Positions 8,500-28,956 of a stretch of 64,000 nucleotides of DNA are shown piece by piece; within the stretch, counting starts at the first letter, position 1, and the number at the start of each line of letters is the position of its first letter. The notes under the pieces were generated by a model, which had not been told where the DNA came from, ran no database searches, and worked only from the letters and a program-made list of their open reading frames with translations. The DNA is taken from the NCBI GenBank assembly GCA_015179125.1, contig WHVA01000116.1, positions 62,001 to 126,000 on the forward strand, read 5' to 3'. The stretch comes from Gautieria morchelliformis (Eukaryota > Basidiomycota > Agaricomycetes > Gomphales > Gomphaceae). Position numbers and translations under genes: made by a program.

Positions 8500-10939
8500 C
8501 TCAGGATGAATGGTATGACTATCCAAACAAAACTCTCTGGTTTCATGGTCTTTTGGGAGCATCACCATTACAACCGCCATACCTATTCCGACCCTGGAGC
8601 TTTATCGGCGATGCCAGCTTCGGTGCCCCCAATTCAGTGTGCAACAGTGGATGAAGGTCAATATACTTCAACACTTTGGGAGCAATTTCCAATGCATTCA
8701 ACGCATACCTTGATATATTATGTCATGTGGATAAGACCCTGAAAATGGCTCTGGGCCGTGATGGACCTACATGGCATATCCTTCACAGCTGCCCACCATG
8801 TCAATATAAAGTACATGATGCCATCAATTTGTATATTTTTATCTCAAGCCGAAATTCACAGCTTGAGGGGGAAGCTCCACTTAACCCATCGATCATGGGT
8901 GCCTTGGACAGTAACAATAGCCTGAAGCGATTTGTCAGGGCTGATCGACAGTCAGACATGCTCACCTTCAACAGCAACTACTTCCTTTCTCGGGAGACTG
9001 TTGATCAAGTTGCACACGAGGTCAAACGCAAAGTCAAGACATCAGACAATGAATCTGTAACTATGCTTCTTTGACGTTAGTATGTCATTTAAGACATGAT
9101 CCAGGTTGAAGTTGAGATAGAGGGTGACCCCACTGATGGACATTCAAGTGTGGCCACTTGTTTGGATCGCTGGCATGCAGCAATGGCCATATGCTCAAGG
9201 GCATGTAAAATGCTTTTGAGGAGACAGGTGTCTTTGTATCAGTGTGTCGGCATGGCTTCATTTGGACAATTGTGGACATGATAAGAGGTGGCGAACTGTG
9301 CGTATTATCTATCTATATTGTGTTATATTATTCACTAACACAGGCATCAGGGCAAAATACCCATTGGCCACCATAGATAGGTTGCTATCAGTGCTCCCTC
9401 CAGGTCTTGGGCTTGGTTATGACATCGCTTGCTCCTTTTCCACAATGCTGAGGCAGAGTTCGCTTGGTAAGAGGCAACAGATGACTGGGCTGCGCATGGT
9501 AGTCCCTGCATTCCATGGGCATGCACATAACAGGTTTTGCCAGCTAGGTTTTCATATTCTTATGTTTCATGGGTTTGGCTTGGAGGACTGGAAACATGTA
9601 AACACCTGTTTTTGGCTTCAAATAGTGTTGCTCGGCTCATGCGGCATGCAACCCAGTTCCATCGCCGGCAGTTCATTGACATGTTCTTCCACCAATGAGA
9701 TGCGGAAAAGTATGAGCACCTGGGTAAGACAGGTTTTAAATTGTGGATAGCAGGCACTCATTCGCACTTTAGGTCAGTTTTTGCTTAACAACTACAAGCA
9801 GGCATTAGAAATACTTTGTGATATGCCTGTTTGCATCCAAAGCCTGCTTCCAGGACGGCATATATCAGATGCCCAGTTCTCAACATGGCTTCAAGAAGAA
9901 CACAAATATCTCAACTCAAAGAAAAGTGAACCGGAAAAGGATATCTTAGCTACCCAGTACGTTGGATTGCTCAGCAAACATGAAGAAGCCCACAGTCTCT
10001 GGGAGTCCTCTCAAAAGCTCGCAGCGCAAGCAACCCGGGCTACCGATCAGGCACGTTTGTGCCAGGTCACCCACGATGCATGGGAGGGTGTGGTTTTCCT
10101 TCAGAAGGAACTTCAGCAGGTTGAGGAAAACTTAGACATAGCCACACGATGGTCACCCGAACAGCCTGAATACCAGCATGCAGCTGATTATATCTGTACC
10201 TGCAAGTTTCAAGTTGCAGTTGACAAGCTTGAGGGGCTCGTTGTGCAGCAGCTATTTGAACTAACAAACGCAAATGTATCACAGACAGGTATGGACATTG
10301 AGACACTGCATCCTGGCATCCTACTAATCTACAAAAGGCTACAAGATGCGCATATATCCAAGGCACTACAAGATTGAAAGCAATTGAAGGTGTACAATGA
10401 CGCAGCTCTCACCCTTGACCCTCCACGTCCCAAGCTCACTTGGTCACAAATTGTAGAATATACGACTCCCGTGGAATTTGAGCTCTTACAATCAGGGGCC
10501 CATGATGACATCTGTAACCTGGATTCGGCAAAAGCCAGACATCAGGAAGCTGGTATTTGCCAGCTGAAAATCTTACATGCGCAGGAGGAGCTTCAGAGGT
10601 TAAACATTAAGGTGAAATGCTTGGTGACCGACCTGGACCATCAATGATGAGGCCAGTCTGGATACAGCAATTACAAAGTGTCAGGGCTCAAATCCGCTGC
10701 TGGCCAAGGCAATGAGGGGTTTTATTGCCAAGCAGAAATGAGTGAACCGCCGTGTGCAAGCTACTCTGCACAACATATATGACCTTGATGGATACTCAGG
10801 TGAGGCTGGGATTGGACAGTGGGAGGCAGAAGATCAGGATGGTGTCAACGAATATCTGGGCTCAGAACAGGATGAGGAAATAGATGATATGATCAATGAC
10901 ATTTTTGAAGGGGTTATGAAGTTAACACTAGCTGAATAG
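8500..10939 (+). pseudogene. KDZ-family transposase, interrupted frames
   Basis: Blocks in order match KDZ (Kyakuja-Dileera-Zisupton) transposases: ALGRDGPTWHILHSCPPCQY (about 8745), MGALDSNNSLKRFVRADRQS (about 8897), FNSNYFLSRETVD, GDPTDGHSSVATCLDRWHAA (about 9122), a CRHGF..IVDMIRGGELRAKYPLA region, LGYDIACSF (about 9412), AFHGHAHNRFCQLGFH (about 9510), LNNYKQALEILCDMP (9785), RWSPEQPEYQ and KLEGLVVQQLFELTNANVSQ (about 10240). The C-terminus has VEYTTPVEFELL, then RVQATLHNIYDLDGYSG and an acidic tail ending at TAG 10937. An intron near 9297-9343 fits. Several frame switches or stops (for example around 9600-9780, 10375 and 10647) indicate decay. The usual N-terminal Cys-cluster domain is not recognisable upstream. 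Confidence 0.82.
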
Positions 10940-16308: not shown

Positions 16309-17550
16309 TGTCAAGATTGGTTTTTGGGCGTTAATATCGTGTATTAGTGAACACAGCAAATGCCCGAATAGCTTGTGCGAATAAGTATGCCATTTGGCGA
16401 ATACGTGAACCAATGAATGTTCACAAGATAAGAGGGTTGCCCAAACGGGGCTTGCCCTATCTACAGTCGTAGTGAAATGGCCCGTGGCACTTGACGATGT
16501 AACGTGCAAGGTGTCACTGAAGTGCTGTCTAAGTAGCGACAATCCCTTCACCAACAGCACAGAAAATAGTTCGAAGGCTAAGGTAACGAAGATGAAGTAT
16601 GAGAACTCACCAGTGATGCCTAAGTCCTCTTCTGGTCGAAGATAGAAATCTCCAAGAGAAGGCTTAAGACGATGATCACAGTGAGGTCAAGTTTGCACAA
16701 GATGGACGATGTATGATAATTGAACTGGAGAATATACATGCGAATGTAAACTACTTATATCGAATGCTCGTAAGGCATCAGCAAATAGGAAAGAGGCTGT
16801 CGTGAGTCAGGGTTGGATAGGGGTGCGCAGTCATGATACTAAGTAGATGGAATAAACATACAATAGAGTGAGAGAAGAGGGCAAACATGAAACGACGGAG
16901 AGTAAAGGTGGCGAAGGCACCTATGTATGAAATCATGTCTTGGGGCCCGCATATACACCGCCCTGCACGGGTCCTTCTTCTGCTGGGTTGATCCCACACG
17001 ACCTACAGGTAGGACGTCCCGCGAACGCACCCTGCTCATATGAACACCAAAAGGGGGTTGGACCTAGAAGCTGATGGAGCTACTGACGAGCCATCATGCT
17101 GGGTAGGGATATCGATCGTGATTTGATGGTGTGCCTGCTGGCGAATGATGCGAGCAGCGAATGGCTGTTCGGCGAAATGCGAGGAAGGGCCAACAGAGAT
17201 GACATAGGGCAGGAGTGGTCGAGGTGGAGGGCAAAGCCAAGCAAACACGGAGGAGAGGTGGCGAAAGGGGAAATGGGGATAACAAGGTGTAGGAAATACA
17301 CACGTCATCACAATCCGATCATTGGAACATCATCGAAAGAGGGTTGAGCAGAGGAGGTGATAGGCTCAGCAATGACTGCTAAGTCAGTCCAAAGAAGTCG
17401 ATCGTGCTTTGACGGCATGGCTATGGTAAATGGCGCGAACAGCGAGGATCGCTTGCCGAACACGGCGAGGGCGATCGGAACGAACACAGAGGTGGAGTGA
17501 GAAATGGGAAAACAGGGCATCTGAGTATGGGAAATAAATGCGTCATGACA
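16309..17550 (-). mobile_element. LTR-type repeat copy B, reversed, with internal duplication
   Basis: It runs from TGTCAAGATT (16309) to CGTCATGACA (17550), the reverse of copies A and C. Flanks CTCCG (16304-16308) and CTCTG (17551-17555) look like a slightly diverged 5-base target duplication. At 1242 bases it is some 210 bases longer than copy C, because the segment next to its 17550 end occurs twice (about 17140-17320 and 17380-17550). No open internal region accompanies it. It is an old solo LTR. Confidence 0.7.
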
Positions 17551-17555
17551 CTCTG

Positions 17556-17790
17556 CCTGAACCACTAACGATGAGAGAAGCTCAGATCCATCAGCTCCTC
17601 ATTTTTAGGATAATTGCCATATATTTATTATACATCAATATTTATTTACAATTTTGAATGCGTGGTCATTGTCAGTGACGATGAGCATGGGCTCCACGCA
17701 AGGCACTAACGCTGAGAGAAGCTCAGATTCGTCATCTTCTCATTTTTAGGATAATTGTGATATATTTATTATACATGAATACCTTGTCCA
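17556..17790. repeat. Imperfect tandem repeat, about 140-base unit
   Basis: The segment ACTAACGATGAGAGAAGCTC (17564 on) with its following AT-rich part (TTTTTAGGATAATTG, ATATATTTATTATACAT) recurs from about 17705. A related but shorter piece with GATGAGCACAGGCTCC sits at 16210-16308, just left of LTR copy B. The LTR therefore seems to have landed inside a three-unit array. Confidence 0.7.
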
Positions 17791-17916: not shown

Positions 17917-18115
17917 GGTTATGGGCCCCACAGAGCCCACCATGCCATCCTCCACCTTGAAGTCGTTTGTCATCCCTAAGCTGGCCTGGGATGGCATGAA
18001 CTGGGTTACTTGGAGGAGTCAGACTTTAGCTACACTAGTGATGACTTAGGGTGCCAGATGGCACCTAGAAGGGACTGCTCAGATCCCCCCAGCGCTTGTG
18101 TAGGAACTGCTTTAC
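17917..18115 (+). mobile_element. Copia fragment: primer site and start of gag
   Basis: GGTTATGGGCCCC at 17917-17929 directly follows a sequence ending in CTACA, as expected at an LTR/primer-site border. From 17941 the frame reads MPSSTLKSFVIPKLAWDGMN and WVTWRSQTLATL, the N-terminal pattern of Ty1/Copia gag. The rest of the element is missing. A broken, old copy. Confidence 0.6.
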
Positions 18116-18458
18116 TAGTTAAAAAATCTTGAAAAAAGCATTAAAACGGCCTGTAAAAACCATTTTTCACATCTCAACATCAGCCAATACACGCAGCTTT
18201 GATGGGAAATTGACTTTAGAATATTCCTTGAATTTCCTCACATTTTTTCGCCAATTGTTTTGACTTCCTTGGCTCAAAACCACTTTATTTTGCTTGACAA
18301 AGGCCATGAACCCACACATGTCCATAACTTTGTCACCAGCGCTCGAATTCAAACTCCGACAGCAACGATCCTTGAACACGCTGATAGCCACAACTTCCTT
18401 GCATTCCTATGTGATGCAGTGTTTTTTGATCAGCCACTGTTTTTTCTCCTCAGCCTCC
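18116..18458. other. No gene identified
   Basis: Between the Copia fragment and the older Copia copy lies AT-rich DNA with one open reverse frame (18167-18391) of no recognisable family. Part of it may be the LTR of the following Copia element, whose left edge could not be fixed. Confidence 0.4.
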
Positions 18459-18560
18459 TGTCGTTATCTGTTGATTAATCAGCTCCCAGTAGCTACATAG
18501 CGGCTGAGTTCTAAGATGAACCTTACTCATTGGTTCCATCTTCTAACTCAGGTTCTGACA

Positions 18561-18573
18561 GGTTATGGGCCCC
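18561..18573 (+). promoter_or_regulatory. Primer-binding site of Copia-2 (tRNA-iMet anticodon arm)
   Basis: GGTTATGGGCCCC follows LTR-like TCTGACA directly. Its complement, GGGGCCCATAACC, corresponds to the anticodon stem-loop of eukaryotic initiator-Met tRNA, the half-tRNA primer known for Drosophila copia. Confidence 0.75.
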
Positions 18574-18870
18574 GTGCCTTGATCAAAGGAAAAGAAATCC
18601 ATCCGAAACTCAACCATCATCTTCTATCATGTCGGACTCAGAAACCGAGAACCGCACGAGAGGCATCAAACTCACAAGCACCAACTACAACACATGGACG
18701 GTTGCAATGCAAGGAAAGTTGATGACCGTCAATGCGTGGTGAATAGTCACAGAAGACTCGAAGAAGCCGACCGACGCAGCACTAACAGAAAAGTGGCTAC
18801 TGAAAAGAGAGGAAGCCACCGGTATTCTACTGAAATCGTTGTCCCACACACAGTATGTCCACATAGGAGG

Positions 18871-19539
18871 TTGTTCGGAAACTATAAGAAGTATCAAACT
18901 CTAATATCTCCTTAAGATCATTTAAATACTTGGAGTCTATTCTAAACATAATTTGGATTTTAAAACTTTTGGAATTTTTAAAACTTATTTGTACATCATG
19001 AAACAAAGCATCTTTTAAGAGCTGAATATATTATGAAACACTGTGGTGAGTTAGAACTTTAAGAATTTTAAAAGGTAGACTCCCTTAGATAGTACATTTC
19101 ATACACGTGTATGCCATTGACACCTTGAAATACATACGTGTTACCTCGGAATGGGTGAGTTAACTAGAATATATTTCTATTTGATTCAACATACTAAGAA
19201 TACCTGGGCGGGTTTGCTTAATTAGGAAGGTTGTAGCATGAAAAATCTCCAATAATATCTTACATATTTTACATGGAAAGAACTGCAGTTTAGTTTTTAA
19301 AAAATGGAGTACCAACAAAAGTATTAACAGATATCTATAAACAGAAGGAAATCATATACAATGGATTCTATTAAATGACCTTTAATTGTTTAGCGTGTAA
19401 CATGGAGAACTATTTCCCAGAATTGCTTTTTAATGATGGAATAGTTTCAGAAAAGATATCACTATTTAAAGATGGAGTTTTATGGGAACATCACTTTTAT
19501 TAGTAAACATCTGATATTATAGTAATTCCAAACACCCTC
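18871..19539. mobile_element. hAT-like MITE, about 669 bp
   Basis: This AT-rich, non-coding block interrupts the gag of Copia-2. CATAGGAGG on the left (18862-18870) and CATAGAGG on the right (19540-19547) look like an 8-base target duplication with one extra G; the gag frame implies an original CATAGAGG. The inner ends TTGTTCGGAA and TTCCAAACACC form a short imperfect inverted repeat. An 8-base duplication points to the hAT superfamily. No transposase is present, so the element is non-autonomous. Confidence 0.55.
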
Positions 19540-19638
19540 CATAGAGGTGTGATGGATGACCCAGTTGAGATGTGGAAGAGACTGAAAACGGCTCACCGAT
19601 CCCAAGTGGCAAATAGCCGCTTCCATGCAATACAGAAG

Positions 19639-20127
19639 TGTTAGCAACTAGGGGGCTATGGCAGGGAAGGTTCGGTAGAGTTCTTAGAAAGCTAGAATCA
19701 AATATACTCTCTCAGTGAATTTATTGTCACTGATGTATTAATACAATACCTAGAATCAAATATACTACATGATTTTCAGTCAACATGCTATGTAAATATG
19801 AAAGATACTACTCGCCTCTCTCAGTGAATTTATTGTCACTGAGAGAGGAGTGTAATCCTGTCTCAGAAGGCATATACTTGCACCCGGCCCTTTAGCGCCC
19901 AAGGGCTCGCGCGTCGAAGTCATTTCAAACTCCGCTGGGTGCAGCCGCCTATGAAAATAGAAATAACAGAATGGAATGGAGAGATAGGGAGTGACTAGAA
20001 AATTTCGAAAATAAGCAGAGAAGTGGATGCATAGTACAAGAACAGTATGAGAAAATATTGAAACATTACACAATAAATTGAATATATTATGCTTGATTTT
20101 GGTGCAGGAGCATAAATGCACCCAACA
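19639..20127 (-). repeat. 3' LTR of Copia-1
   Basis: 489 bases, TGTTAGCAAC to CACCCAACA on the plus strand. Inside is a hairpin with 13-base arms, CCTCTCTCAGTGA/TCACTGAGAGAGG, near 19818-19851, and a partial second copy of the AGAATCAAATATACT..CTCAGTGAATTTATTGTCACTGA words to its left. Confidence 0.95.
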
Positions 20128-20140
20128 CGCCCCCTCAAGC

Positions 20141-23100
20141 TTAATATATTCCGATTTTCTCGTTGAGGATTCTCACTCTAGGACTAGGAAGTCCTTTAGT
20201 GAGAAGATCGGCTAGCATGTGTTCCGTTGGTAGGTACACAAGCTTAATTTCTTCATCTTCGACTATATCTCGGATGAAATATAATCTAATGTCGAAATGC
20301 TTGGTCCTCGTGTGTTGTTGAGTGCCATAGACAATGGCAATGGCTGATTGATTGTCTGAATAAAGTTTGATGGGACAATTCAACGGTTGGAATACTTCAG
20401 AAATAAAGTGGCGCATCCATAAGGCTTCTTTGCTCGCATGAGTCAGAGCAACGAATTCGGCTTCAGTTGATGATAGGGCTACTATGGATTGTTTTTGACA
20501 ACTCCATGATACTGTCCCTCCATCAATCTGAAAAATATAAGCCGAGTATGAGTGCCTGTGCTCTTGAGAAGCCCAATCCGCATCTGAATACCCAATGAGG
20601 CCATCTCGATTTTTCCCAAGTGTCAATTTGTAGTCCATCGTGCCTTTTAGATATTTAAAGACACGTTTGACTGCATGCCAATGTGTTGGACCTGGGTTTT
20701 CGAGAAATTGAGAAAGTAATGACACTGCGAACGCAATGTCCGGTCGAGTGGCTACTGCTGCCCACATCAATGATCCTATCGCTTGTCTGTATGGAATTCT
20801 TGACATCTTCTGTTTGTCTTCATCTGTAGAAGGGCATTGGTCTCTGGATAATTTAACGGCTGGGTCGAGAGGCGTGGAAAATGTTTTGGCATCATCCAGA
20901 TTGAATTTTTTGATGATTTTTTGGATGTATGCAGCTTGTGATATTGCAATCGATTTGTTATTCCAATCTCTTTCGATTTTGAGGTTCAAAAGCCAATGAA
21001 TCTCGCCTAGATCTTTCATACTGAAGATCTGGGCAAGATCATGCTTTACCCCATCGAGGATTGGTTGACTCTCAGCTGTGATAGTGAGGTCGTCTACTGC
21101 CGTCGCAATAATCGCATGCCCTCTCGGTCCACGTCTGCAAAATACAGCTCCATCCGAAGCTGATTTAGTGAATCCTAACTTGAGAAATTCACCACTCAGA
21201 CGTTTATACCATTCCCTTCCAGATTGTTTGAGGCCGTAAAGTGCTTTCTTCAGAAGGAGGACATCATCTTTGTCTCCGGTCTCATATCCATACGGCTGTC
21301 TCATGTAAATAGGTTCTGGCAGTGTAGCATTCAAATACGCACTGTCCACATCCATTTGGTGAATAGGCCAGTTGTTCCTGGCAGCAATGGCACATATAAT
21401 CCGTAAGGAAGTCATCCGAGCAACAGGTGCATAGGTTTCATTGTAGTCGACTCCAAAATTTTGTGTAAAGCCTTGGGCGACCATCCTCGATCTAGGTGTA
21501 ATGGGTTCACCTTCTGGATTGCGTTTCCAGAGGAATACCCATCTATTTCCGACAATATTTGCCCCAGGAGGTGGTTTAACCACTTCCCATACACCTTTGT
21601 CGAGTAGCACCTTATACTCTTTATCCATCGATGCTTTCCACATAGGATCATTTAAGGCTTCATCTGCATTGCTAGGCTCAGTCTGATTCAAATCCGGCAG
21701 CACCTTATCTTTGTTTTGATCGGAGGTCGAAAGTGTACTGATGGCAAGGTTATAATCACTGATGCCGTCAGTTTCAGAGGATAAATCTTGTTCGAATAAT
21801 TTGTCTTGATGGTCCTCAATGTCCTCGTAAGCTAGTGTAGTAATATCTGCACCAGCATGTCTCTTAGTTTGAGATCTTGTTACAGGACCACTTGGGGCCG
21901 GCTGCACCTGCTGCTGACGGATCCTTTCACTTCTTCTTGTTGGAGCAGCTTCTTTAGGTCTGACATCAACAGTCTGACTGGGTTGCAGCTCTTTCAGACG
22001 TTCCTCTGGTTCATCATCATCAATTTCCTCGATCTTTGCCTCCTCGCTGACTAAGCGACTAGGCATAGGTGCTGGCGCCGAGATGGCCTGTACCATTTTT
22101 CTGGACGTAGGTAGCTGTGACTCTTCAATAGAAATGATTGGAGCTTTGCCCCCCTTCATCTCTGAGTCAAATATAACATTCCGCTCGACAGAAACCTTCT
22201 GAGAGTCAGGCCAGTAGATGCAGTGACCATGGCTCTGTCCAGAGATTCCTATCCACCGAGCTCTTTTGGCACGGGCTGCTAGTTTGTTTCCCTCTTTGAC
22301 TTTAACGTAGACTTCAATTCCCCACACGTGTATGTCTTTCAGATTCGGTTTCTTGTGATGGATCATTTCAAAAGGGGTTTTGTCTGGCAAAGCTCTTGTA
22401 TGTGTCCGATTCCTAAGATAGTTGGCATGCAAAATTGCATGCCCCCATAGAGTCTTAGGAAGACTTGATTCCAATAGCATGGCACGAGCTCTTTCAACTA
22501 GAGTTCGGTTTAAACGTTCAGCAACACCATTTGACTCTGGGGTGTCGTGCACGGTTAACCGATGCTTCGTGCCTTGCTTGGCCAAATGCTGTTTGAATTC
22601 TGAGCTTGTATATTCGCCCCCTCTGTCGGAAACAAGTGCTTTGATGTGCACGTTCCTCTGTCGAAGCATCAAAGCCTCGTAGAGTTTGTATTTTGAAAAT
22701 GCTTCCGATTTGTTTGCCATCAAATAGATAACCGATTCTCTTGAGTAGTCGTCGATGAAAGACACATAATAGGATTTCTTGTCAATTGTGGAGTGTCTCG
22801 CTGGTCCCCAGACATCAGAATAAATTCTGTCACCGAATTTTGATGATCGGCTTCTGGGTTCCTGAGGAAGTGATTTGCGTGCAATCTTCGCCTGAATGCA
22901 CGCATCGCAAATAACCTTGTCACCTTTTGAGCTCAATTCAATGCCTAATATCATGCCACGGTTGAGCAAGTGCTGTAGGGACTTTTGTGAAATGTGCCCC
23001 ATTTTTTGATGTATTTCCATGGCTGATGCGCATACATGCGCTTCGGCACTTGTGTGTTGTAAATCAAATCGATATAAGCCATTCAGCTTCGGTGCTTGCA

Positions 23101-24391
23101 TCAATATCCTGCCTTTACGATTGGATATTGTGCATTTCTGATCAGCTATTTGTGTGTTATAGCCTGCATCATCGCACCGGCCGATCGAGATGAGGGTAAC
23201 AGCCATTTTTGGCGCGTAGAACGTATCCTTCAATGTAATGTTCACAGCCTTATCTCCAACCTTGTTAGATAGCACGAGTGAGCCTGAACCGAAGGCATCA
23301 AAAGTGCCTTTGTTGGCTGCATGAATTGTGTGCGGCTGTGAGAATGGACTGTAATCCCTCAATAAATTCTTGTGAGGGGTCATATGTGCGGTCGTTCCAG
23401 TGTCGAGGATAACAACAGTGTCCAGAGATAAACTACTCAAATTAGAGCAGTCGAAGTTGGCGAAAGCGGCTGGACTGCCACTCTCATCCTCCTCAGAGGA
23501 CACTTCTTCGGCAACATTCGCCTTGGCTTTGCCCTTCTTCTTTTTGGCTTTCGCTTTCTTCTTCTGACGTGGCCCCTGGCCTTCTTTACCACCTCCTTTA
23601 GCCCAGCAACTCTCTATAGCATGTCCAGGCTTGTGGCAATTAGTGCATGTAGACACCTTCGGGTCTTTCCGGCCCTTCTGCCCTTTCGTAGATGAACCAA
23701 TAAATGCCTGCTCTTCTTGTGAAATATTGAGAGTCTTTCTCCTGTCGTATTGAGCCTTTAGTACTCTGATAATATCATCAGGCACTAAGGGCATTCCACA
23801 TTCTTCGAGCGACGTGGTAAGGGCATTCATAACTGCCTCATAGGAGGGTGGAAGTGATGCAAGGATAATGTCGGTGAACTCTCCTTCAGAAATTCTGGCT
23901 CCCATCTCATTGAGACGAGCATAGAGGTCTTGGGCCTTGTCCAAGTGATCTCTCAAGTCTCCATCCTCAGGACACCTCATACTGCGAAGCTGTCTCTGTA
24001 GGTTGGTGAGGACCATCTTGGGCTTTTTGGTCATCTCATTGACCAATGCATCCCAGACTTCTTTTGCTGTGTGTCTCTTCTGTAGCATCAGAGCTAGTGA
24101 CTCTGACACTGAGACGATTATTTGGGTTTTTGCCTGTCCTTCTCTGGCAAGATACTTCTCCAGCTTCTCCTCAGCCTTCTCAATCTGAGTTTCCTCAGCT
24201 TCTGTGAGAATATGGCCTGGGGGCATGACTGGAGGATCAGGAGGTCGAATGGCTCTCCCTTCTATATGCCTGAGTAGATTTTTGGACTCAAAATAACTTG
24301 TGAGAGTAGCTCGCCACAGAGGCCAATTACTTCCATCTGTTGCAAGCTTCTCCACACCCAAAAGCTTCTGCGAAGTGTCTGCGGGGCCCAT
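20141..24391 (-). CDS. Copia-1 Gag-Pol polyprotein, about 1416 aa
   Basis: One uninterrupted frame carries all Copia parts in order (approximate residues): UBN2-type gag (10-230), zinc knuckle CTNCHKPGHAIESCW (250-265), aspartic protease LDTGTTAHMTP (330), GAG-pre-integrase HQKMGHIS (460), integrase with DVWGP, FIDDYSR and NGVAERLNRTL (510-680), reverse transcriptase with NRWVFLWKRN, ARMTSLR and TAVDDLTI (950-1190), and RNase H with YSDADWASQ, SSTEAEFVAL and KHFDIRLYFIRD (1270-1400). I take the ATG at 24391 as start, because the frame upstream of it within the LTR has no other ATG. It looks whole. The family makes virus-like particles in the cytoplasm and inserts cDNA into the genome. Confidence 0.95.
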   Translation of the reverse strand: MGPADTSQKLLGVEKLATDGSNWPLWRATLTSYFESKNLLRHIEGRAIRPPDPPVMPPGHILTEAEETQIEKAEEKLEKYLAREGQAKTQIIVSVSESLALMLQKRHTAKEVWDALVNEMTKKPKMVLTNLQRQLRSMRCPEDGDLRDHLDKAQDLYARLNEMGARISEGEFTDIILASLPPSYEAVMNALTTSLEECGMPLVPDDIIRVLKAQYDRRKTLNISQEEQAFIGSSTKGQKGRKDPKVSTCTNCHKPGHAIESCWAKGGGKEGQGPRQKKKAKAKKKKGKAKANVAEEVSSEEDESGSPAAFANFDCSNLSSLSLDTVVILDTGTTAHMTPHKNLLRDYSPFSQPHTIHAANKGTFDAFGSGSLVLSNKVGDKAVNITLKDTFYAPKMAVTLISIGRCDDAGYNTQIADQKCTISNRKGRILMQAPKLNGLYRFDLQHTSAEAHVCASAMEIHQKMGHISQKSLQHLLNRGMILGIELSSKGDKVICDACIQAKIARKSLPQEPRSRSSKFGDRIYSDVWGPARHSTIDKKSYYVSFIDDYSRESVIYLMANKSEAFSKYKLYEALMLRQRNVHIKALVSDRGGEYTSSEFKQHLAKQGTKHRLTVHDTPESNGVAERLNRTLVERARAMLLESSLPKTLWGHAILHANYLRNRTHTRALPDKTPFEMIHHKKPNLKDIHVWGIEVYVKVKEGNKLAARAKRARWIGISGQSHGHCIYWPDSQKVSVERNVIFDSEMKGGKAPIISIEESQLPTSRKMVQAISAPAPMPSRLVSEEAKIEEIDDDEPEERLKELQPSQTVDVRPKEAAPTRRSERIRQQQVQPAPSGPVTRSQTKRHAGADITTLAYEDIEDHQDKLFEQDLSSETDGISDYNLAISTLSTSDQNKDKVLPDLNQTEPSNADEALNDPMWKASMDKEYKVLLDKGVWEVVKPPPGANIVGNRWVFLWKRNPEGEPITPRSRMVAQGFTQNFGVDYNETYAPVARMTSLRIICAIAARNNWPIHQMDVDSAYLNATLPEPIYMRQPYGYETGDKDDVLLLKKALYGLKQSGREWYKRLSGEFLKLGFTKSASDGAVFCRRGPRGHAIIATAVDDLTITAESQPILDGVKHDLAQIFSMKDLGEIHWLLNLKIERDWNNKSIAISQAAYIQKIIKKFNLDDAKTFSTPLDPAVKLSRDQCPSTDEDKQKMSRIPYRQAIGSLMWAAVATRPDIAFAVSLLSQFLENPGPTHWHAVKRVFKYLKGTMDYKLTLGKNRDGLIGYSDADWASQEHRHSYSAYIFQIDGGTVSWSCQKQSIVALSSTEAEFVALTHASKEALWMRHFISEVFQPLNCPIKLYSDNQSAIAIVYGTQQHTRTKHFDIRLYFIRDIVEDEEIKLVYLPTEHMLADLLTKGLPSPRVRILNEKIGIY

Positions 24392-24396
24392 AACCC
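24383..24396 (-). promoter_or_regulatory. Primer-binding site of Copia-1 (tRNA-iMet anticodon arm)
   Basis: On the minus strand the sequence GGGTTATGGGCCCC starts one base after the LTR end ACA. Its complement matches the initiator-Met tRNA anticodon stem-loop. The first ATG of the polyprotein (24391-24389) lies inside it. Confidence 0.8.
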
Positions 24397-24397
24397 T

Positions 24398-24886
24398 TGT
24401 TAGCAACTAGGGGGCTATGGCAGGGAAGGTTCGGTAGAGTTCTTAGAAAGCTAGAATCAAATATACTCTCTCAGTGAATTTATTGTCACTGATGTATTAA
24501 TACAATACCTAGAATCAAATATACTACATGATTTTCAGTCAACATGCTATGTAAATATGAAAGATACTACTCGCCTCTCTCAGTGAATTTATTGTCACTG
24601 AGAGAGGAGTGTAATCCTGTCTCAGAAGGCATATACTTGCACCCGGCCCTTTAGCGCCCAAGGGCTCGCGCGTCGAAGTCATTTCAAACTCCGCTGGGTG
24701 CAGCCGCCTATGAAAATAGAAATAACAGAATGGAATGGAGAGATAGGGAGTGACTAGAAAATTTCGAAAATAAGCAGAGAAGTGGATGCATAGTACAAGA
24801 ACAGTATGAGAAAATATTGAAACATTACACAATAAATTGAATATATTATGCTTGATTTTGGTGCAGGAGCATAAATGCACCCAACA
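24398..24886 (-). repeat. 5' LTR of Copia-1
   Basis: Same 489-base sequence as the 19639 copy, no difference noticed. It carries the promoter for the minus-strand genomic transcript and ends one base before the primer site. Confidence 0.95.
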
Positions 24887-25391
24887 AGAAGTCCCTTACA
24901 GACTACATCACCCGTATAAACGCCGCCACGAACGATCTCATAGCTCTAGCACCCAGCGCTCTCACCATCCAGAACATTGTCGATGAAATCGGAATTCATG
25001 TGGCCATCGCAGGACTCAACCAAATCGAATACGGTGCATTCACATCATCCCTACTCCTGATCGCACCAGCATCTCCACAGCCTTCCGGAACAAGGATATG
25101 AAGTGTCAAGCGAACTTAGTGTCATCAGGAGCAGCGCTTACATGGCTAGAGGAAAGAAGACCACCATCCAAATGTGCACAGCATGCAAGAAGCAAGGCCA
25201 CTCGATAGACCAATGCTGGACCGTCCATCCAGAACTTCGACCAGCACGATCGAGGCATGATGGAAAGAGCGCAAACCAAGTGAAGGAGAGCGTACCTAAT
25301 TCAGTAATGCAAGAACTCGCCGGAAACGCAAGTCTGCAGCCCCTACCCTCATCGTCCACCAGCTACAATGCTGACTTACATTGGAACACAG

Positions 25392-26421
25392 TGTCATGAC
25401 CTGTCTATTTCCCTTACCCCACTGCCTCTATGTTCCCCCTCCTCACTCCCTAGCATCTTCGCCAGAGTTCGCCACACCCTCCGACCACTCCTCCTCTACG
25501 TCCACTCTACCCGCTGTTCGCCCCATTCTCCGAACCGCTATTCACTGCTCGCACATTTTGCCAGCAGGCACACCATCAAATACGATCGATACCATTTACC
25601 TGGCATGATGGTTCATCACTAACCCCATCATCTTCTTAATCCAACCCCTTTGGGTGTTCGTATGACCAAAGTGTGTTCACAGGATGTCCCTTCCATAGGT
25701 CGTGCGGGATCAACCCAGTAGACGAAGAGTCCGTGCAGGGTAGCATGTATACGGGTCCCAAGACATGGTTTTGGACATAAGTGCCTTCGCCACCTTTACT
25801 CTCCGTCGTTTCATGTTCGCACTCTTCCCTCACTCTATTGTATGTTTATTCCATCTACTTAGTATCATGACTGCGCACCCCTATCCAACCCTGACTCACG
25901 GCGGCCTCTTTCCTATTTGCTGATGCCTTACGAGCATTCGATATAAGTAGTTTACATTTGCATGTATATTCTCCAGTTCAATTATCATACGTCGTCCATC
26001 TTGTGCAAACTTGACCTCGCTGTGATCATCGTCTTGAGCCTTCTCCTGAAGATTCCTATCTTCGACCAGAAGAGGACTTAGGCATCACTGGTGAGTTCTC
26101 ATACTTCATCTTCGTTACCTTAGCCTTCGAACTATTTTCTGTGCTGACGGCGAAGGGCTCTGAAGGAGCACCTTCGCCGGCGAAGGGATTGTCGCTACTT
26201 AGACAACCCTTCCGTGACACCTTGCATGTTACATCATCAAGTGCCACGGGCTATTTCGCTACGACTGTAGATAGGGCGATCTCCGCTCGGGCGGCCCTCT
26301 TATCTTGTGAACATTTATTGGTTCACCTATTTGCCGAACGGCATACTTATTTGCACAAGTCATTCGGCATTCACTGTGTTCACTAATACACGATATTAAC
26401 GCCTAAAAACCAATCTTGACA
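25392..26421 (+). mobile_element. LTR-type repeat copy C (solo LTR) inside Copia-2
   Basis: 1030 bases from TGTCATGACC to AATCTTGACA with a perfect 5-base target duplication CACAG (25387-25391 and 26422-26426). It lies between the zinc knuckle and protease of Copia-2. A GATATAAGTAG motif near 25939 could be a TATA element. This copy defines the family boundaries for copies A, B and D. It is a solo LTR: no internal region remains. Confidence 0.85.
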
Positions 26422-26426
26422 CACAG

Positions 26427-28516
26427 ATACAGGCGCCACTAGCCATATGACGCCGCATCGCCATTGGTTCCATGACTACGAACCATATCGTGTACCCATT
26501 CGATTGGCAACAAATGAGGTGGTATACTCAGCGGGAAAGGGCCAAGTATTATTTGCACCCATAATAAATGGGAAGGTGGCGCAAAATGTTATCCTCTCAA
26601 AAGTCTTACACGTACCTTCTCTCCAAAACAACCTACTTGCTGTTCTGCAGCTCACCACGCATCATGAATTCACAGTCAGTATTGTAAGGGATCGCATCTC
26701 GTTCTTCCAAGGAGGGAACTTGCGTTTTTACGCTGCAGTACGGAACGGCACAGGTTACCTAGTTGGAAACACCATACCCAACTCTGAGCAGACCCTCATT
26801 GCCTCATCACATGTAGGAGATCGCTCCCTATGGCACCAACGCCTCGCACACATCGGATCAGCGCGTCTGGAAAAACTGTTAGAGAACAACATGGCTCACG
26901 GGATTCAAATAAATTCAAAGGAAAGTATACCAGCTATCTGTGAGCCATGCATCGCCGCGAAGGAACATCGCGACCCTTTTCCAAAAAGGACCGATAACCA
27001 CGCCTCAAAGCCGCTTGACCTTGTTGTATCGGATGTACACGGACCACTACCAGTCCGTACAGTGACTGGACACCGCTACTGGATAACATTCATGGATGAC
27101 CACACAAGATACAGATGTGTGTATCTTCTGAGAATGAAAGACAAAGCCTTCGATGCGTACCGTGCCTATGAGGCTTTTGCCAAAAACCAAACCGGCTTGA
27201 GAATAAGAAAATCCAGAGATGACAAAGGTGGGGAGTACGTAGGCCAGAAATGGGATGAGCACTTCAAACGGCAAGGTATAATCCATGAACGTACCACAAA
27301 AGGCACACCACAGCAGAATGGGATCTCAGAGCGCACCAACCACACTCTCATCAAAGGGACGATCGCATTACTACAACAAGCTCACCTGCCAGCAGCAATG
27401 TGGGGGGATGCCCTGAAACTACTAGTGCGCATCGTCAATGCCACCCCAACCTCTGCACTCCCGAATATCATGCCATACGAAGCCTGGCACAGCCAAAAAC
27501 CAGATCTAGGAATGCTTCGAACCTTCGGATGCACGGCTTACATCCATGTACAAAAAGCAGACCAGACCAGACTGCAATCTAGGACCCAAAAATGCATTTA
27601 CCTCGGTTTCGAAACTGGTTACAAAGGGTGGCACTGTTTTGACCCTACCACGAAACGCACCATCATTTCTCGTGATGTAATCTTCAATGAGACCGAATTC
27701 CCAGGACTATCCACTCCAAACTCTACCAACCAAGAACTGCACTTACCAGTGCCCCCACTTCCGAGAGAAGCTGCCGTTCCACCAGCCATTGGACAAGATC
27801 CACAGAACCAAAACCTTGACCCCGAACCGCATAACAATGATCAGGAACACCAACCCATCCCTGACCCATTCCAGGCCTCCCCCATCCCACCAATCCCTGA
27901 CCTGCCACCCTTACCCGCCGATGAACCCTGCCGTTCAAGCAGAAATATGACCCGAGTCGACTACCACCACCTCCATGATCCGTTCCTCAGGCCACGCCCA
28001 CCGCCAGACCACGATTCAGACCCCGACAGGGGCGCAGTGACAATCGCATCCATCATCGAGGCCCTGGAATTTGTCAATAATAAACAAATTATCACCAGCG
28101 TAAACATGCCTTCTCCAGACACTATCAAAATAGCTTTGAATGCAACAATCAAGGATGACAGAGTCCCGAGCACCTTTGCAGAAGCGACGCGACGGTCTGA
28201 TAGCCAACTCCGGAAAGAATCGGTGGATGCAGAAATTCAAGCACTTTTAAACAATGGAACATGGGAAATAGTCAGGCTACCACCAGGAGAAAAGGCTATC
28301 AGATCGAGATGGGTGTTCCGGATCAAGCTCCACTTGGACAGTTCCCTGGACAAGTAAAAGAGTCGCCTAGTAGCGAAGGGGTATACCCAATGGCCAGGCA
28401 TCGACTACAATGAAGTCTTCGCCCCCACAGCGAGATGGGCCGCCTTGCACACTATACTGGCCCACGAAGCGATTCAAGGAGCGCACATTGAATCAATAGA
28501 CATCTTGAATGCTTAC
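26427..28516 (+). pseudogene. Copia-2 pol region (fossil)
   Basis: After LTR copy C the frame carries protease (DTGATSHMTPH), pre-integrase HQRLAHIGSARLEKLLENN, integrase (SDVHGPL, FMDDHTRYR, NGISERTNHTL) and, after a Pro-rich linker, the beginning of reverse transcriptase (WEIVRLPPGEKAIRSRWVF, then YNEVFAPTARWAALHTI). It ends where LTR copy D begins. Sequence differs clearly from Copia-1, so it is another lineage. Broken. Confidence 0.85.
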
Positions 28517-28956
28517 TGTCAAGATTGGTTTTTAGGCGTTAATATCGTGTATTAGTGAACACAGCAAATGCCCGAATAACTTGTGCAAATAAGTACGCCG
28601 GTCGGCAAATAGGTGACCCAATAAATGTTCACAAGATAAGAGGGCTGCCCGAACGGAGCTCGCCCTATCTACAGTCATAGCGAAATAGCCCATGGCACTT
28701 GATGATGTAACGTGCAAGGTGTCACGGAAGGGTTGCCTAAGCAACGACAATCCCTTCACCGACAGCACAGAAAATAGTTCGAAGGCTAAGGTAATGAAGA
28801 TGAAGTATGAGAACTCACCAGTGATGCCTAAGTCCTCTTCTGGTCAAAGATAGAAATCTACAGGAGAAGGCTCAAGACGATAGTCACAGCAAGGTCAAGT
28901 TTGCACAAGATGGACGTATGATAATTGAACTGGGGAATGTACATGCAAATGTAAAG
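28517..28956 (-). mobile_element. LTR-type repeat copy D, truncated
   Basis: It starts TGTCAAGATTGG at 28517 within the reverse transcriptase of Copia-2 and follows copies A-C in reverse orientation for about 440 bases up to ACATGCAAATGTAAA. The rest of the family sequence and any target duplication are missing. An old fragment. Confidence 0.75.

Follow-up and report, generated by a model that had tools for sequence, protein, structure and literature searches.

Three Copia elements, called E1, E2 and E3 here, lie close together in the 64-kb stretch of DNA that we analyzed (the window). Their features are listed in Table 1. E1, which lies on the minus strand, is the youngest of the three and is intact. 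A self-comparison of the window found its two LTRs identical at 489/489 bases, and the element is flanked by a 5-bp target duplication (AGAAG, at 19634-19638 and 24887-24891). Its reading frame was searched for domains in three pieces and contains Retrotran_gag_2, rve and RVT_2 in that order, with E values of 1.4e-27, 1.2e-10 and 1e-65. As in Ty1/Copia elements (Pseudoviridae), integrase lies upstream of RVT_2 in one polyprotein that carries a Copia Gag; the LTRs, 5-bp duplication and purine-rich tract that also mark this group were found together in E1 only. Within the E1 LTR (24451-24606, minus strand), we observed a palindromic CTCTCTCAGTGACAATAAATTCACTGAGAGAG, part of which, CAGTGACAATAAATTCACTGAGAGA, is repeated nearer the LTR end, and two copies of GTATATTTGATTCTAG.

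Table 1. Features of the three Copia elements, in positions of the window
Feature	Position	Strand	Details
E3 primer-binding site	17917-17929	+	13-mer GGTTATGGGCCCC; ATG 17921 in gag frame
E3 gag remnant	17921-18091	+	MGPTEPTMPSS...; truncated by E2, contains one in-frame stop
E2 5' LTR, putative	18099-18560	+	TGTAGGAACT ... TTCTGACA; second copy not found in window
E2 primer-binding site	18561-18573	+	13-mer GGTTATGGGCCCC; own ATG opens a 5-codon uORF (MGPVP, stop)
E2 gag start	18630-18866	+	ATG 18630, MSDSETENRTRG...; weak DUF4219
E1 3' LTR	19639-20127	-	identical copy of the 5' LTR; purine-rich tract GAGGGGGCG just before
E1 single Gag-Pol ORF	20141-24391	-	Retrotran_gag_2, Pol_BBD, gag_pre-integrs, rve, SH3_retrovirus, RVT_2
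E1 primer-binding site	24383-24397	-	AGGGTTATGGGCCCC on the minus strand; 13-mer GGTTATGGGCCCC at 24395-24383
E1 ATG within primer site, probable Gag-Pol start	24389-24391	-	sole in-frame ATG before the Gag domain
E1 5' LTR, 489 bp	24398-24886	-	100% identical to 19639-20127
Solo LTR inside E2	25392-26421		target duplication CACAG
E2 pol piece	26420-28519	+	Pol_BBD, SH3_retrovirus, rve, RT start

Of the other two elements, E2 is decayed. The gag of E2, in which the DUF4219 match (E 0.0027, 17.8 bits) is under the curated cut-off of 27, resumes at 19540-19638 and at 24892-25391 with stops and frame changes. In its pol piece, the integrase region comes first and the RT start second; rve reaches 30.8 bits, slightly under the cut-off of 32.6, and the RT start is matched by tblastn with an E value of 9.8e-19. 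With the solo LTR and a single CACAG removed, the zinc-knuckle region of E2 continues into its protease/integrase, reading ...LHWNTDTGATSHMTPH.... This solo LTR is one of a family of LTR-like repeats of about 1 kb (TGTCATGACC...TTGACA). Another lies at 16309-17550, directly upstream of E3 and flanked by CTCCG/CTCTG, and partial matches lie at 1-886 and 28517-28955. A further insert in the E2 gag, at 18867-19539, is MITE-like, with terminal inverted repeats GAGGTTGTTCGGAA and GAGGGTGTTTGGAA and the target duplication CATAG.

The gag remnant of E3 aligns by tblastn with residues 1-51 of E1 Gag (36.8% identity over 57 columns, E 8.6e-4), and this similarity begins at the ATG in the E3 primer site and ends at 18091. 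The probable E3 LTR contains a 78-bp direct repeat (17563-17640 and 17704-17781) whose units are 90% identical. For both E2 and E3, the 5' LTR ends were placed by a CA end, by the primer site itself and by the Copia gag that comes next.

E1 lies in the gag of E2, and excising E1 with one AGAAG restores the gag reading across the join. The putative E2 LTR starts directly past the E3 gag remnant. E1 is thus within E2, and E2 within E3, so the elements would have been inserted in the order E3, E2, E1. We infer the E2-in-E3 step, because the window yielded neither the 3' LTR of E2 nor the remainder of E3; comparing the window with itself likewise gave no second LTR for either element. Searches of the window with the E1 and E2 proteins (tblastn) showed no further Copia element.

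A sequence-only reading of this DNA had claimed that a common primer site follows the LTR ends at 17917, at 18561 and, on the minus strand, near 24396. Exact matches to the 13-mer GGTTATGGGCCCC do occur at these three places and nowhere else on either strand of the window, where base composition predicts 0.0016 occurrences. The minus-strand copy is present as claimed, but the coordinates given for it, 24396-24383, take in one extra G. When 12 bases are sought with at most one mismatch, three sites are found against 0.21 expected, and at least three appear in 1 of 100 shuffles. The 13-mer adjoins the LTR directly in E3, whose LTR ends ...CGCTACA, and in E2, which ends ...TTCTGACA (...CTGACA). 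In E1, the LTR ends ...GCTAACA, the minus strand reads AGGGTTATGGGCCCCG past the LTR end at 24398, and the gap is 2 nt. The common stretch is 13 bases long across all three elements and 14 for E1 and E2, and the elements are otherwise widely different. Every Copia 5' end recognized in the window (3/3, the whole survey) has the site, but this count is to some extent circular: the site itself helped in recognizing the 5' ends of E2 and E3.

The same reading spoke of three Copia copies. All three are indeed Copia elements, but, judged by their sequences, they are different families and not copies of one. For example, the integrase regions of E1 and E2 are 30% identical. That all three are Copia elements at one locus might suggest that recent copies of a single family have kept the 13-mer by shared descent, without selection. 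However, the elements are nested in time and have diverged to 30-37% protein identity where compared, whereas the 13-mer is identical, and we regard shared descent alone as extremely improbable. Diverged families with only this stretch in common fit selection on a primer site, as had been proposed.

The complement of the 13-mer was assigned earlier to the anticodon stem-loop of initiator tRNA (tRNA-iMet), and published oligonucleotides bear this out. A zebrafish Northern probe against tRNA-iMet, TCTGGGTTATGGGCCCA, appears in the available part of one report (PMC11417395); the 12-base core of the sites is identical to it, with 12 bases in common for E2 and E3 and 13 for E1 (GGGTTATGGGCCC). As a control, 9 of 20,000 random 27-mers of the window, a draw that may include the three sites, share 12 or 13 bases with this probe. 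An oligonucleotide from a yeast study of eIF2 and Met-tRNAi, ...CAGGGTTATGAGCCC (PMC11230868, as far as its text was available), is presumably also directed against tRNA-iMet. One of the 12 bases, at a position where G-U pairing is possible, is different in it, and this shortens the unbroken run in common with the sites to 9 bases in E1 and to only 7 in E2 and E3. Computed duplex energies are -28.4 kcal/mol for the predicted host primer, -24.2 for a vertebrate-like end and -21.4 for a yeast-like end.

Drosophila copia uses a 39-nt primer, which ends at nucleotide 39 of the tRNA. For Hemivirus half-tRNA primers, the accessible portion of a published description places the 3'-OH at nucleotide 40 (PMC1181622). 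In E2 and E3, a primer with the end ...CAUAACC-3' would start at the very first base of the site, no more than one base away from that reported end. The E1 13-mer, 2 nt off its LTR end, fits priming by half a tRNA less well.

Under ordinary priming by the 3'-CCA end of a tRNA, the site would begin only at the TGG within the 13-mer (TGGGCCCC), and its partner would be a tRNA whose end reads GGGGCCCA-3'. All three sites do contain TGG. However, the GGTTA upstream of it, common to all, would be left unexplained, and the site would stand 5-7 nt from the LTR end. The tRNA would also need C73 and the acceptor strand GGGG, and we know of no eukaryotic tRNA with both. We therefore consider 3'-CCA priming very unlikely.

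It is just as improbable, in our judgment, that the site primes through a local hairpin with the U5 end. The pairings that this requires are present in two elements, CCAUAGCCC with GGGUUAUGG in E1, the best of the three, and CAUAACC with GGUUAUG in E3. For E1, pairing as good was obtained in 218, 141 and 86 of 2000 shuffles when the last 40, 60 and 100 nt of the LTR were used; the last of these counts speaks for the hairpin. The corresponding numbers for 2000 random stretches of the window are 125, 240 and 432. With 40 nt of LTR, the counts of 2000 for shuffles and random stretches are 801 and 740 for E3 and 845 and 1081 for E2. The E1 leader folds with a z-score of -1.42, and 18 of 200 shuffles fold at least as well. 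Striking as the hairpin looks in E1 and E3, it is not convincingly beyond chance.

Priming from the 5' half of tRNA-iMet is our best reading, and the matches to anti-iMet oligonucleotides support it well. The host tRNA-iMet would be cut in or beside its anticodon stem, leaving ...CAUAACC-3', as for Drosophila copia and yeast Ty5. Cleavage at that point, like the tRNA itself, is deduced for the host; the tRNA would bear the matching GGGGCCCATAACC or a G-U variant of it. The 13th base of the site is C in 3/3 elements, which predicts that the host tRNA-iMet has a G opposite it, where the stem is variable. Taking the evidence together, including that on translation below, we think it very likely that three Copia families use the 13-mer as their minus-strand primer-binding site, with the 5' half of the host's own tRNA-iMet as primer, and that the AUG of the E1 site is also the Gag-Pol start.

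Initiator tRNA-Met is the tRNA that Drosophila copia and other Hemiviruses (1731, Ty5 and Osser) use. Priming by a short tRNA segment sets the genus Hemivirus apart (PMC8515867), and the available text of a second source treats it as a mark of that genus as well (PMC1181622). The three elements have its defining feature, with the zebrafish and yeast oligonucleotides as reference: a site adjoining the LTR and complementary to the anticodon region of tRNA-iMet, at all three recognized Copia 5' ends. The Copia-type order of pol is common to both, and half-tRNA priming in the anticodon stem-loop with cDNA that starts from nucleotide 40, as described for Hemiviruses (PMC1181622), would be as well. 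One difference is that the primer here is read from the sequence alone; the apparent start of the E1 Gag-Pol at the primer-site AUG may be another.

Half-tRNA priming had earlier been suggested as a finding for a basidiomycete. The fit of the site to half of tRNA-iMet stands, but the novelty does not: Kojima 2024 (PMC10886601) has already described priming by tRNA-iMet from its anticodon loop in basidiomycetes, for Copia-28_PHord, so that the headline finding was known. Copia-28_PHord and the fungal Helenus TRIMs of that report, compared by description only, share the 5-bp target duplication. Helenus elements are nonautonomous and have a tRNA-like sequence in the LTR. E1, in contrast, encodes Gag-Pol, and no tRNA was detected in the window by ARAGORN (a decayed tRNA-like stretch could escape it). 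Sites complementary to half of tRNA-Met are also described for the plant lineages Osser, Bryco and part of Gymco-II (Neumann 2019, PMC6317226, again compared by description from partial text). The portions of PMC7175516 and PMC3601003 that were available contain nothing on half-tRNA priming in basidiomycetes. What the present elements add is three Copia families with such priming in a likely fungus.

Because the site is antisense to the CAU anticodon, it always contains AUG. Any element RNA with a primer site of this type must therefore have an AUG close to its 5' end, and the element must use it, keep it in frame or tolerate it. As gag start, the primer-site AUG is clear in E1 and compatible in E3, and E2 stands against it. 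In E1, the frame upstream reads TAG TTG CTA ACA AGG GTT ATG: a stop, then five codons with no other ATG. The frame has no further Met until residue 56, which lies within the Gag region. Since the Gag domain has no other in-frame AUG ahead of it, the AUG of the primer site is very probably the Gag-Pol start codon, and the site provides it with G at -3 and G at +4. Alternatively, E1 translation may start from a spliced mRNA or at the near-cognate TTG at the LTR end. A DG..W motif at residue 19 of E1 aligns with residue 12 of 8vvw, which we take to be the Copia VLP protein of Drosophila, but this aligned stretch scores only -2.8 bits; the match of E1 Gag to 8vvw (whole-sequence E 1.5e-4) rests on residues 83-217.

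In E3, the primer-site AUG shares the gag frame, and that frame is free of stops up to the Gag motif; by itself, such agreement of frame would arise by chance in one case of three. Seven codons on, at codon 8, a further in-frame AUG has an apparently better context (CCCACCATG); because it looks better placed, either AUG could be the E3 start. In E2, the primer-site AUG opens only the short uORF; the gag start follows 65 bases later in a different frame. The AUG thus appears to be used in E1, kept in frame in E3 and tolerated in E2.

The probable E1 start codon within the primer site goes beyond what had been claimed earlier and is worth following. Tentatively, and at somewhat less than even odds, we suggest a dual role in the E1 lineage, in which one AUG starts Gag-Pol and the same bases prime cDNA. 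During translation, the AUG would be recognized as start codon by intact initiator tRNA on the ribosome, and within the particle the half molecule left by cleavage would anneal to these bases and prime reverse transcription. If so, the start codon would be hidden beneath the annealed primer, translation and reverse transcription would be mutually exclusive on one RNA, and the first Gag residues (Met-Gly-Pro) would be dictated by a tRNA. Among the titles and abstract openings covered by our literature search, none reported a primer site that doubles as Gag start codon; such a search cannot exclude one, and Repbase entries were outside its scope. The main text of Kojima 2024 (PMC10886601) does not contain the words "start codon".

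Searches of two further sequence sets gave no counterpart of the primer or of the elements. A strict eukaryotic iMet pattern had no match in genome_contigs. An iMet-like pattern matched nine stretches of viral_contigs, and ARAGORN called tRNA-Met at 9/9; we read these as prokaryotic or phage tRNAs, not eukaryotic ones. A pattern from the E1 RT matched three stretches of viral_contigs, one from the E1 and E2 RT alignment matched 42 in viral_contigs and 27 in genome_contigs, and one from the alignment of their integrase regions matched 16 in viral_contigs; tblastn confirmed none of these as a Copia relative. A text search for the letters of the site returned, by title, no work on retrotransposons among the matches listed.

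Two minor observations concern the E1 site and the host. The palindrome GGGCCC in the E1 primer site may act as an RNA-dimer contact. Elsewhere in the window, a piece of a KDZ (Kyakuja-Dileera-Zisupton) transposase at 9220-9747 (E 3.5e-26) gives a weak hint of a basidiomycete host.
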